From a virus, in IMG/VR virus record IMGVR_UViG_3300034104_003538, positions 1-45,959 of that record: 45,959 bases of DNA; one strand, 5' to 3'. The notes below the pieces were generated by a model. The model was not told where the DNA came from and searched no databases. It saw nothing but the letters and a program-made list of their open reading frames with translations. This document shows, in pieces, positions 17,230 through 21,223 of the stretch (position 1 is its first letter; every line of letters begins with the position of its first letter). A program made the translations under genes and the position numbers.

Positions 17230-17238
17230 GGTTTAGAC

Positions 17239-17265
17239 GCTGCCGTTCAACCAATTCACGGCAGC
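17239..17265 (+). other. Hairpin ahead of terminator
   Basis: GCTGCCGT and ACGGCAGC form a perfect 8-bp stem with an 11-base loop, between the stop at 17229 and the terminator at 17285. It has no T-run and may protect the mRNA 3' end. Confidence 0.5.
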
Positions 17266-17284
17266 ACTCTGTTCGAAAACTCAG

Positions 17285-17309
17285 CCCCGCTTCGGCGGGG
17301 TTTCTTTTT
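17285..17309 (+). terminator. Intrinsic terminator ending the small early block
   Basis: CCCCGC-TTCG-GCGGGG followed by TTTCTTTTT. This is a strong plus-strand terminator closing the 15130-17229 gene block. Confidence 0.93.
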
Positions 17310-17456
17310 GCGAAAACCGACAGTTATGCACAGGTCGGCCCCTATCGATTTTGCAGCCACGATGTATATTCAAATCACGCCCTTACGGTTGGTGACACAT
17401 TCGAGAAGGTGCGGTGTCGGGGGGAGAGATCGCCGGATTGGCTCTGCTCACACAGG
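17310..17456 (+). ncRNA. Possible short structured RNA or leader
   Basis: There is no credible gene here. Two hairpins are visible: CCGAC/GTCGG (17317-17336) and GACAC/GTGTC (17395-17419). TATATT near 17366 could be a -10 box, but no good -35 is present. The stretch ends in the strong terminator at 17457-17486, so a small RNA of about 110-140 nt is possible. It could also be the 5' domain of the larger RNA that follows. Confidence 0.3.
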
Positions 17457-17486
17457 AAAGGCCCCGCCTCACGGTGGGGCCTTTTT
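17457..17486 (+). terminator. Strong intrinsic terminator
   Basis: AAAGGCCCC at 17457-17465 pairs with GGGGCCTTT at 17476-17484, the inner bases extend the stem, and a T-run follows (five T at 17482-17486). Being separate from the terminator at 17285, it implies a distinct transcript ending here. Confidence 0.88.
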
Positions 17487-17529
17487 GCGTTGCACCATTT
17501 GATCGTGTTTTGATTGTACAGTTTGCGTC

Positions 17530-18045
17530 TGTAGTTTGCCAGCGCCGCCCCCGCTACCCCAGCTCTATTCTGATACACCGAGGTTTCAGAAGGCTGGTGA
17601 GACCCGAGCGAAGGGAGGCAAAGGGCGACCATCCCCGCCGGGATGGCAGGGTGGTCCCCTCAACCGAATCACGTTCAGAAGGCCGGAGCCGACCGTCGCT
17701 TCGGAGGTTCCCGCCACAGATGGGCAGCAGGACCGGCGCGCTACTTCCAAAGGCTCCATCCGCCTCTGTGGTCCCCGCTTCGCGCCCTCGGGCTGCGGTT
17801 CCGATATGGACCAATCCCACAGTATCGGTTGCTCTGAGTGGCCTGCCGTTAACCGACGCCCGCATGCCCGCGTTGGAACTCAGAGGAACCAAGACGAACA
17901 GTTTGGGACGGATCTGAACTTGCCAACGGAGGGATACGTGGGTATCATTGCGTCCGTTGAGCCAAGAACACAGCCCGCCAAAGCCGTTTCTATCTTGGTT
18001 CACTCGGCCCCGTTGAGAGTCATCTCCGGGGCCGAATTCTTTTTG
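17530..18045 (+). ncRNA. Probable large structured non-coding RNA (about 500 nt)
   Basis: Between two plus-strand terminators lies a stretch without a plausible gene but with a series of compatible helices. GGTTTC/GAGACC at 17582-17587/17599-17604. CCATCCC/GGGATGG at 17629-17635/17640-17646. CCACAGA/TCTGTGG at 17714-17720/17765-17771, extended inward by TGG/CCA. CCGATA/TATCGG at 17801-17806/17823-17828. CTCTGAGT/ACTCAGAG at 17832-17839/17878-17885, enclosing CCGACGC/GCGTTGG. AACCAAGA/TCTTGGTT at 17887-17894/17993-18000, enclosing CAACGGA/TCCGTTG at 17924-17930/17953-17959, which encloses GATAC/GTATC. The last two domains abut, as if coaxially stacked. The strand follows from the plus-strand terminator at 18004-18044. 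Phages are known to encode large ornate RNAs (GOLLD and ROOL classes), but I cannot assign this to any class. The 5' end and promoter are uncertain. Confidence 0.6.
18004..18044 (+). terminator. Intrinsic terminator of the structured RNA
   Basis: TCGGCCCCG at 18004-18012 pairs perfectly with CGGGGCCGA at 18027-18035, followed by TTCTTTTT. The T-run exists only on the plus strand, so this ends plus-strand transcription just before the convergent primase gene. Confidence 0.9.
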
Positions 18046-18053
18046 ACGATGCT

Positions 18054-18995
18054 CTATGCGAAAGGGTTCGTCAACTCCCCCATCGCTTTCCCCGCGTTAA
18101 AAGCAGACAGATCATCGTTCCAGTCATTTCCAGTAATCGCGGGTAATGCCACGACAACTTCCCGCTTGAACATCACAGTAAGCCGGTGAGCCAATGCATA
18201 GGCCTTGGCCTGCCCCGCGAATGATTCGTCGTTGTCACCGAGCACATAGATGATCTCGGCAGCAGCTGGCGGGGTCCACTTCGATAGGCCCACACCGCTC
18301 ACAGCAGCCCATACAGGCATGTCGAACAGGATCGATGCAGCCAAGGCGGTCTCGATGCCCTCTGCTATCCCCATGACCTCGGCAGGGGCTGCAAGGCGTA
18401 TGGCGCAGCCTTCCGGCAGCTTGCCCGCCATGACCCGCTTAGGCTTCGACGTGGCTGCCTTTCGCCCGTCCGGGGTCAGATAGGTGATGTGGAGATTCAC
18501 CGCCTTGTTCTCCGGGCTGGCGATCTTCGCGATCATAGCCGGGAACTTCTGCTTCGTCTCCGGGTCGAACACCGAGAGCGCCTCACGGATCGACAGAGGC
18601 GGCTCGTGAGGGCCGAGGCGGTTGTATAGGTATCTCTGCACTGGGCCGCCCTCGGAGGGCTTCCTAGCCCGCTCCCACAGCGCCCGCATGGCAGCCAGCG
18701 GATCGTCCTTGGCGGCCTTCGGGTTGCCCCGCTCGATGCCGAGGTAATCCCGCACCAGCTGCATCGCATCCGGCATGGCAAGCCCCTTCACGTTCTTGAG
18801 AAGGTGAAACCCGTCACCGGCCCCACAGCCCGAACAGTAATAGGTGCCGCGCCCCTCTTTATCGTCGTATCGAAACCGGTCCTTGCCGCCGCATGCTGGG
18901 CAGCCGCTATGCTTGCCGCCACGAGGGACAGCAATATGGAAATGATCGAGGATCTCGCCCCAGCGCCCGCGCGCCGCATCGACCACAGATGTCAT
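18054..18995 (-). CDS. DNA primase (zinc finger plus Toprim)
   Basis: The 313-aa protein has the N-terminal zinc site of phage primases, GCPACGGKDRFRY and YYCSGCGAGDGF (C32, C35, C54, C57). The C-terminal Toprim domain has the acidic motif GIAEGIETALAA (E212) and VLGDNDES (254-258), with a further DWNDDL near residue 291. It would make RNA primers for DNA synthesis, acting with the helicase encoded next to it. It is primase-only, unlike the fused primase-helicase of T7. ATG at 18995 overlaps the helicase stop as ATGA. Confidence 0.9.
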   Translation of the reverse strand: MTSVVDAARGRWGEILDHFHIAVPRGGKHSGCPACGGKDRFRYDDKEGRGTYYCSGCGAGDGFHLLKNVKGLAMPDAMQLVRDYLGIERGNPKAAKDDPLAAMRALWERARKPSEGGPVQRYLYNRLGPHEPPLSIREALSVFDPETKQKFPAMIAKIASPENKAVNLHITYLTPDGRKAATSKPKRVMAGKLPEGCAIRLAAPAEVMGIAEGIETALAASILFDMPVWAAVSGVGLSKWTPPAAAEIIYVLGDNDESFAGQAKAYALAHRLTVMFKREVVVALPAITGNDWNDDLSAFNAGKAMGELTNPFA

Positions 18996-20476: not shown

Positions 20477-20693
20477 CGCGAAGTTCCTTATCTTGTTTGA
20501 TGATCAACCGTAACAAAAAGATCGCCGTCAACGGAATAGGCACCTCACCCTTTTTCCACCGGTACAGCGCGCGAGGCGATATACCAATCATCTCAGCGAA
20601 ATCGGCATTGCTGAATTGCAGCTCAGCGAACGTCTTGCTGTTTTTGAACTCGTTATACAACTCTAAGAATTCAACGTGATTTCCCGCGATCAT
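20463..20693 (-). CDS. XRE-like helix-turn-helix protein
   Basis: The 76-aa protein has a helix-turn-helix around FSNADFAEMIGISPRALYRW followed by KKGEVPIPLTAIFLLRLI, the layout of small XRE/Cro-type regulators. The first 25 residues (FLELYNEFKNSKTFAELQ) are helical. It could repress its own replication operon or act on the palindromic promoters. ATG at 20693 overlaps the upstream stop as ATGA. Confidence 0.8.
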   Translation of the reverse strand: MIAGNHVEFLELYNEFKNSKTFAELQFSNADFAEMIGISPRALYRWKKGEVPIPLTAIFLLRLIIKQDKELRGELA

Positions 20694-21223
20694 ATTCTCT
20701 CTCCACTTTGATGATCCACACAGATCAATGCGACAACAGTCTGCTTTCCATCATTTGTCTGACCGGCATTGCACCAGTCCATTGTGCGCCGCTGCATGAG
20801 ACGGCGATGCGGCGGGCTGTCGTGCCACATCTGCACGATCTCGCGCGCATATGACGGCACCGGCCCTTTGTAGAGGTTCTCGCCATACCACTTGCCGGGG
20901 ATGCCCGACGCGATCACGTCCTCGTTGAAGAGGCGGTGGCCCTTGCTGAGCCCGCTGTTGCGATACTGCCATGCGTGACGAGCGCGATGGTCGGCCAGTT
21001 CGCCGACGCGCGGATTCGTCGTGACCGCTTCGAGGTCGTGGCCCATGCGATACCGGTTCAGCTCGGCAATTACGTCCGACCTATTCGACGCCGCCGGTGC
21101 GTCGATGACCGCCGATGTGCAGCCAGCGAGAAGCAGGGTCAGCACCATGAGCGCAACGATCAGCATCATAGAAAAAGAGAAGGCGTCAGCGACGCCCTCC
21201 CAAAAGCTTTTCAGTTTTTTCAT
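20690..21223 (-). CDS. CAP/SCP-domain lipoprotein
   Basis: The N-terminus has a hydrophobic segment (FSMMLIVALMVLTLLLAGC) ending in a lipobox LLAGC (C35), so the mature protein would be a lipid-anchored periplasmic or surface protein. The rest matches a CAP (SCP-like) domain: SDVIAELNRYRMGHDLEAVT, HRARHAWQYRNSGLSKGHRL, KWYGENLYKG and VQMWHDSPPHRRLMQ, with the His and Glu residues usual in the CAP pocket. A phage lipoprotein is a plausible superinfection-exclusion factor, but CAP domains have diverse roles and no target is known. It sits oddly among replication genes. ATG at 21223 begins MKKLKSFWEG. Confidence 0.85.
   Translation of the reverse strand: MKKLKSFWEGVADAFSFSMMLIVALMVLTLLLAGCTSAVIDAPAASNRSDVIAELNRYRMGHDLEAVTTNPRVGELADHRARHAWQYRNSGLSKGHRLFNEDVIASGIPGKWYGENLYKGPVPSYAREIVQMWHDSPPHRRLMQRRTMDWCNAGQTNDGKQTVVALICVDHQSGERI

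Follow-up and report, generated by a model that had tools for sequence, protein, structure and literature searches.

A predicted large pseudoknotted RNA with paired variable repeats from alphaproteobacterial phages, prophages and a plasmid

The IMG/VR virus record IMGVR_UViG_3300034104_003538 contains a stretch of 45,959 nucleotides (nt), here called the window, in which a gap without recognisable genes (17,530 to 18,045) lies beside a DNA primase gene. This gap almost certainly encodes a real, large non-coding RNA of a new class. A terminator hairpin (stem 17466-17480) parts the RNA from the plus-strand operon upstream, and past the RNA's own terminator lies a converging gene on the minus strand (18054-18995), a DNA primase by PHROG. 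An earlier note on this DNA had proposed a large structured RNA of no recognised class, about 500 nt in length, in a region with no credible protein and between two terminators. The RNA is borne out by many homologues with strong covariation, and its novelty by the lack of an Rfam match. Both terminators were located: the upstream one by pattern scan, and the 3′ one (stem 18004-18012/18027-18035 with TTCTTTTT) in the computed plus-strand fold, the scan having missed it because of its long loop. The predicted conserved core is on the plus strand at 17587-17885, about 300 nt, and the portions at about 17560-17586 and 17887-18045 are specific to the phage lineage of the window.

The six-frame open reading frames (ORFs) of the gap gave no match in a PHROG search, in agreement with the earlier view. 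No reading frame is open throughout the members of the class, several of which lack any full-length frame, and the length differences between homologues are not multiples of three. The absence of a shared frame across members rules out a protein-coding reading of the gap. The plus strand of 17510-18045 has a computed folding energy of -219.2 kcal/mol, against -199.4±7.0 kcal/mol for 100 dinucleotide shuffles (z -2.8), and lies below all 100. As the minus strand of the same region also folds better than its shuffles (z -3.8), folding energy alone proves neither the RNA nor its strand. This question is settled by the stem changes among the homologues.

Related virus contigs were reached through the primase of the window. 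The gap region is present at the same place in L002, L003 and L004 (full contigs L010, L014 and L013), and in three related phage contigs the DNA identity of the RNA region exceeds that of the flanking genes. For L014 the RNA core is 92.9% identical, against 72.6% for the primase DNA and 79.8% for the helicase. A 71% homologue found by profile in L092/L100 is on the opposite side of the helicase-primase cassette. Matches at the DNA level to many unrelated phages stem solely from a terminator hairpin at window 17283-17302 (CCCCGCTTCGGCGGGG) and, being limited to it, are uninformative on kinship.

Wider searches relied on two covariance models. The first (R1; 167 positions, without the 5′ half) gave three weak matches in 385 alphaproteobacterial genomes, and reading their sequences revealed the 5′ half as well. 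The second (R2) found eight clear members in the same 385 genomes. When applied to a sample of Pseudomonadota, R2 was positive in 5 of 399 genomes, which are very probably Alphaproteobacteria since all five carry GcrA. Besides these 13 genome loci, nine further virus contigs, reached by pattern, were added as members. Among Rhodobacterales, 22 of 395 genomes (about one in eighteen) were positive at E≤1e-5, and 25 further loci were gained; this and the other E-value given here rest on a shortened calibration. Some genomes carry two or three copies of the RNA (G1089, G1145, G1293 and G1262). A match of 73 bits lies between the primase gene gp46 and gp50 of the cultured Paracoccus phage Shpa (minus strand, at about 33.3 kb), and one of 58 bits is found on pDSM107133_i, a small mobilizable plasmid of Pseudosulfitobacter sp. 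DSM 107133 (Roseobacteraceae). The annotated small hypothetical proteins gp47 and gp48 of Shpa overlap the RNA on the opposite strand (NC_041868.1, 33048-33443) and are probably not genes. The 199 genomes of Planctomycetota searched gave only two short marginal matches, at chance level. The loci total about 54 and establish that, among Alphaproteobacteria, the predicted RNA class is carried by phages, by prophages and by at least one plasmid.

Certain candidates were set aside. The DNA-pattern matches L012, L015, L098 and L099 look coding or lack the RNA, and together with the genome pattern matches L016-L019 none of the eight is matched by R1 or R2. A covariance-model match in L035 (E 0.047) was rejected as it lies inside a 303-aa ORF.

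The fold was assessed by covariation. In an alignment of eight sequences made from sequence only (A11), the helices chosen by inspection have 89.7% standard pairs and a covariation score of 0.440, against 0.142±0.028 when shuffled and a maximum of 0.094 when slid. The score for 27 members (A13), an alignment that was fitted to helices B, C and D, is 0.638, against 0.169±0.017 and 0.130, respectively. Shuffle statistics are inflated by relatedness, hence the use of slid controls, swapped-partner nulls and a separate member set. Hand-picked helices can also flatter, and for this reason an unsupervised scan was made of all window pairs across 19 members. Its top five distinct complementary signals are helices A (z 7.3), F (z 6.7), B (z 6.7), C (z 5.8) and E (z 5.3). 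Under the swapped-partner null with 23 members, A reaches z 7.5, F 7.3, B 5.6, the 5′ hairpin H1 4.2-4.8 and E 4.1. Helix A varies widely in sequence, with 112 Watson-Crick and 3 GU pairs making up its 115 cells. Hairpin D has a z of -0.1 in the swapped-partner test, and all six of its pairs are changed on both sides in A13. For helix G (z 2.1), the support is the compensatory changes seen by inspection.

The elements run from 5′ to 3′ as copy 1 of a variable repeat, H1, copy 2, the motif GGAGCC-NN-CCGUCGC, E, the 5′ strand of F, CUACUU, D, the 5′ strands of A and C, the 3′ strands of F and C, the 5′ strand of B, the 3′ strand of A, the loop AUCCCACAG, the 3′ strand of B and finally G. It follows from this order that A crosses B, and that F crosses both A and C. 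Covariation establishes the predicted core as a compact multi-pseudoknot of the crossing helices A, B, C and F, contrary to the earlier description of stems that do not cross. The two stems singled out in that description, 17832-17839/17878-17885 (helix G) and 17887-17894/17993-18000 (stem 2), are both perfect reverse complements at those positions. The first changes among homologues from CTCTGAGT/ACTCAGAG to CTCTTGGT/ACCAAGAG and to CCGCTGGT/ACCAGCGG, covariation that is apparent by inspection and weak in the automatic test. By inspection, the second is kept in L003 and L004 and has a compensatory change in L092. A helix first drawn manually, GGACC/GGUCC (17730/17770, included in R1), was replaced; GGUCC pairs with the GGACC at 17808 (helix A) in all distant members.

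Unexpectedly, the class also has a pair of variable repeats, which the earlier note does not mention. Every RNA contains a member-specific 8-nt sequence twice, 84-99 nt (about 87) apart, in the formats N8-U-GGUGA-NN-YC (copy 1) and N8-C-GGAGCC-NN-CC (copy 2), and the 2-3-nt satellite NN is also repeated. The window copies of CAGAAGGC begin at 17587 and 17676, and in the plasmid CCATAGC is present twice (by inspection). Across 24 members the two copies agree at 7.46 of 9 positions, against 4.10±0.29 between members and a maximum of 5.58 in 20,000 permutations. The unsupervised scan ranks this identity first (z 8.5), with the short repeat NN at z 6.3. For 19 previously unused members, placed with a repeat-blind anchor, the agreement is 6.32 of 8, against 4.18±0.37 and a maximum of 5.63. 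The partial or misanchored members are L125, which is cut off, and L107, L111, L112 and L188, with an uncertain copy 1. The differences between copies are largely of one kind, 25 of 37 having T in the first copy where the second has C, for the most part immediately 5′ of GG. The bias looks as if two sites served one G-containing partner.

Searches of the element genomes for third copies or complements of the repeat gave none beyond chance. In contig L100 a third copy of that member's own repeat (CTTGCTGACCG) occurs at about +219 relative to copy 2, within the 3′ domain. Where one genome holds several RNAs, their repeats are the same in G1089 and G1145 and differ in G1293 (TGCTCAAC and TTGCTGGC).

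Table 1. Predicted features of the RNA locus, in window coordinates
Feature	Position	Strand	Evidence or remark
Terminator hairpin upstream of the RNA	17460..17481 (stem 17466-17480)	+	Terminator scan; followed by CTTTTTGCG
Putative promoter block TTTGATCGTGTTTTGATTGTACA	17498..17520	+	Identical in L003 amid a diverged stretch; single copy in window
Lineage-specific 5′ arm, CCAGC.. pairing with GCTGG at copy 1	17560..17586	+	Seen in close relatives, not in distant members
Variable repeat copy 1, CAGAAGGC-T, then GGTGA-GA-CC	17587..17595	+	Copy 1/copy 2 identity across members
Conserved GGUGA-NN-YC after copy 1, holding second short repeat NN	17596..17604	+	Scan z 6.3
5′ hairpin H1, GGGCGACCA..TGGTCCCC	17623..17659	+	Inner z 4.2 and outer z 4.8 across 23 members
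Variable repeat copy 2, CAGAAGGC-C	17676..17684	+	Copy 1/copy 2 identity across members
Near-invariant motif GGAGCC-NN-CCGUCGC	17685..17699	+	Member alignment
Hairpin E, variable; the window's own version is weak	17706..17734	+	z 5.3 (scan), 4.1 (swapped-partner)
Helix F 5′ strand GGCGCG, pairs with 17781-17786	17735..17740	+	z 6.7, 7.3; crosses A and C
Conserved CUACUU	17741..17746	+	Members
Hairpin D, 17748-17754/17762-17768	17748..17768	+	6/6 pairs with two-sided changes (A13)
Helix A 5′ strand UGGUCC, pairs with 17808-17813	17769..17774	+	115/115 cells paired, 23 members
Helix C hairpin 17775-17778/17795-17798; 5′ side holds F 3′ strand CGCGCC (17781-17786)	17775..17798	+	Covariation
Helix B 5′ strand CCGAUA, partner strand 17823-17828; pseudoknotted with A	17801..17806	+	z 5.6; A11, A13
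Helix A 3′ strand GGACCA	17808..17813	+	Covariation
Conserved loop AUCCCACAG	17814..17822	+	Members
Helix B 3′ strand UAUCGG	17823..17828	+	Covariation
Helix G (17832-17839/17878-17885) around conserved UGCCGUUAACCGACG (17844-17858)	17832..17885	+	Compensatory changes by inspection
Stem 2 (17887-17894/17993-18000), 3′ domain of the window lineage	17887..18000	+	Perfect complement; L003/L004/L092 by inspection
Intrinsic terminator TCGGCCCCG..CGGGGCCGA, GC-rich hairpin, T-rich tail	18004..18045	+	Sequence and fold

The block upstream of the RNA is likely a promoter; it is not a clean sigma-70 consensus and is absent at that place in L004. The surroundings of the RNA differ between lineages, and no gene family is common to all of its contexts. 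It lies beside a primase-helicase in the window lineage and Shpa, and near an Erf annealing protein and an exonuclease in L100, L118, L120 and L127. Tyrosine integrases adjoin it in L109, L110, L130, L132 and L133, the integrase being common, not universal. In L118 it is downstream of a CI-type repressor (homologue in L120). The RNA sits in the early/lysogeny region. It is argued from these varied contexts, without a common gene, that the RNA is independent of any protein encoded next to it. In four prophages a gene of 190-290 aa lies between the RNA and the integrase and is oriented towards the RNA (L143 9419-10285, L145 7728-8552, L139 7883-8599 and L138 9361-9942); it has no Pfam or PHROG match. 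The window has no tRNA gene, and none of the RNAs adjoins a tRNA cluster; some of the chromosomal loci have one tRNA or a few.

The covariance check called for in the earlier note was run with Rfam 15. At the gathering score there were no matches in the window or in six member loci, and low-threshold scans gave only chance-level, unrelated matches. GOLLD and ROOL are large multi-pseudoknot RNAs of phages and prophages that form cages (PMC12286853). The new RNA is like GOLLD in being a large multi-pseudoknot RNA of phages and prophages without a known protein partner, and like ROOL in its complex pseudoknots. However, GOLLD is often longer than 800 nt, whereas the new RNA has a core of about 300 nt, is not beside tRNAs, carries paired variable repeats and, in the searches made here, comes solely from Alphaproteobacteria and their mobile elements. 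From ROOL it differs in length, motifs and host range and in having no tRNA island, near which GOLLD and ROOL are frequently located. As neither covariance model matches and no tRNA island is present, the putative RNA is not a GOLLD or ROOL member and is a new class. The precedent of these two RNAs, raised in the earlier note, is therefore fair as an analogy and does not extend to kinship.

Other variable RNAs were also compared. The vrRNAs of VIPR are about 100 nt in length, have 9-16 tandem YNNGG units and adjoin a vipr gene (PMC13142463). They are similar in joining a variable part to a structured part, possibly pseudoknotted, within a phage RNA (PMC13142463). By inspection the YNNGG array is absent from window 17230-18060, and identity with VIPR was rejected as its stated features do not fit. 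For circularly permuted group II introns, the literature gave no support for a repeat match. The bridge RNA of IS110 is a single structured RNA with two guide-like segments, which are independent of each other. The new RNA likewise has two guide-like segments in one structured RNA, but these are identical instead of independent, the fold is far more pseudoknotted, and no IS110-type recombinase is common to its contexts, the recombinases found being tyrosine integrases.

In the account preferred here, plus-strand transcription would begin at a promoter belonging to the RNA (17498-17520) and end at its own terminator, and the RNA would fold without the help of a protein encoded nearby and act in trans. 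The two repeats would serve as equivalent sites of contact with a single nucleic-acid partner, the site in copy 1 (U, tolerant of G.U) being weaker than that in copy 2 (C). With the repeats positioned by the pseudoknotted core, the RNA would capture or bridge this partner early in infection or in the control of lysogeny. This full account is given an even chance of being correct. A bolder suggestion, and a rather doubtful one, is that a stand-alone pseudoknotted RNA with two interchangeable 8-nt guides, weak then strong, may be a new form of programmable RNA recognition in mobile elements, with no dedicated adjacent protein. Several observations weigh against the twin-site account. Most of the U to C differences are at one fixed position beside GG, and many N8 recur (GCTCA-, TTGCTGG- and GTGTCGG-types), which makes them less varied than free guides would be. 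The identity of the repeats could instead reflect a shared protein site. No complement of the repeat above chance is found within the RNA (in cis), and the complete genomes of the window phage, Shpa and the plasmid yielded no partner, the hosts not having been systematically searched. The RNA, moreover, is known here from sequence alone.

The repeats might instead be assembly or docking sites of a scaffold or container RNA that self-assembles into a multimer. The niche in phages and prophages, the multi-pseudoknot fold and the lack of a partner protein gene are shared with GOLLD and ROOL and their cages (PMC12286853). Being identical instead of complementary, and lacking any complement in the RNA, the repeats, however, cannot pair with each other between molecules; with no tRNA islands nearby and a core of only about 300 nt, a scaffold is unlikely. 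An alternative of still lower probability is a regulatory RNA of superinfection immunity or incompatibility, with the repeats as twin targets of an element-specific antisense RNA. Precedents are seqA and seqC, the targets of the CI RNA of P4, and a and b, the targets of the C4 RNA of P1. The likeness lies in two like target sequences within one element transcript of an immunity region, and a CI-type repressor (L118, L120), integrase or replication genes adjoin the new RNA. In contrast to P4 and P1, no complementary segment or antisense gene was found in the RNA itself or in the genomes of the window phage, Shpa and the plasmid. Co-resident elements can also have the same N8 (G1089, G1145), and the large conserved core, a further difference, would be left unexplained.

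Group I introns have a P3/P7 topology, which the crossing of A and B resembles, and copy 1 ends in U before GG, as might suit a self-processing or trans-acting ribozyme with the repeats as its substrate strands. No internal guide of the group I type was found, as complements of either repeat do not rise above the permuted level and the unsupervised scan holds none. The group I covariance models do not match, nor does Rfam give a group II or other ribozyme match, and a catalytic role is very improbable. A DNA element that acts in cis, be it an attachment site, an origin or an iteron region, would account for direct repeats at near-constant spacing, often with an integrase adjacent; the repeats would be binding sites or crossover cores and the fold that of single-stranded DNA. 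In the prophage genome G164 the exact 12-mer is absent elsewhere near the prophage and recurs only at two unrelated places on other contigs; an att core is thus not supported there, in the one prophage that allowed a clean test. The repeat pattern in G725 was too short to discriminate. The multi-pseudoknot and the systematic U to C bias suit RNA, and in the window a terminator and the promoter-like block bracket the region, leaving the DNA element with as slim a chance as the ribozyme.

Large natural RNAs of phages fall into few known classes, most of them without a settled function. The presence of this RNA in a cultured phage, a small mobilizable plasmid and about one in eighteen of the sampled Rhodobacterales genomes makes it open to immediate study. 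The paired member-specific repeats, which are absent in GOLLD and ROOL, provide a direct testable handle on what the RNA would recognise.

Near matches to CAGAAGGCYGG (≤2 mismatches) on both strands of the window number 43, against 26.8±5.1 in shuffled sequence, for which codon usage or a link to the repeat is possible. The gene at 20690-21223 (minus strand) is a phage early-region gene with a weak match to the CAP (cysteine-rich secretory protein) domain.
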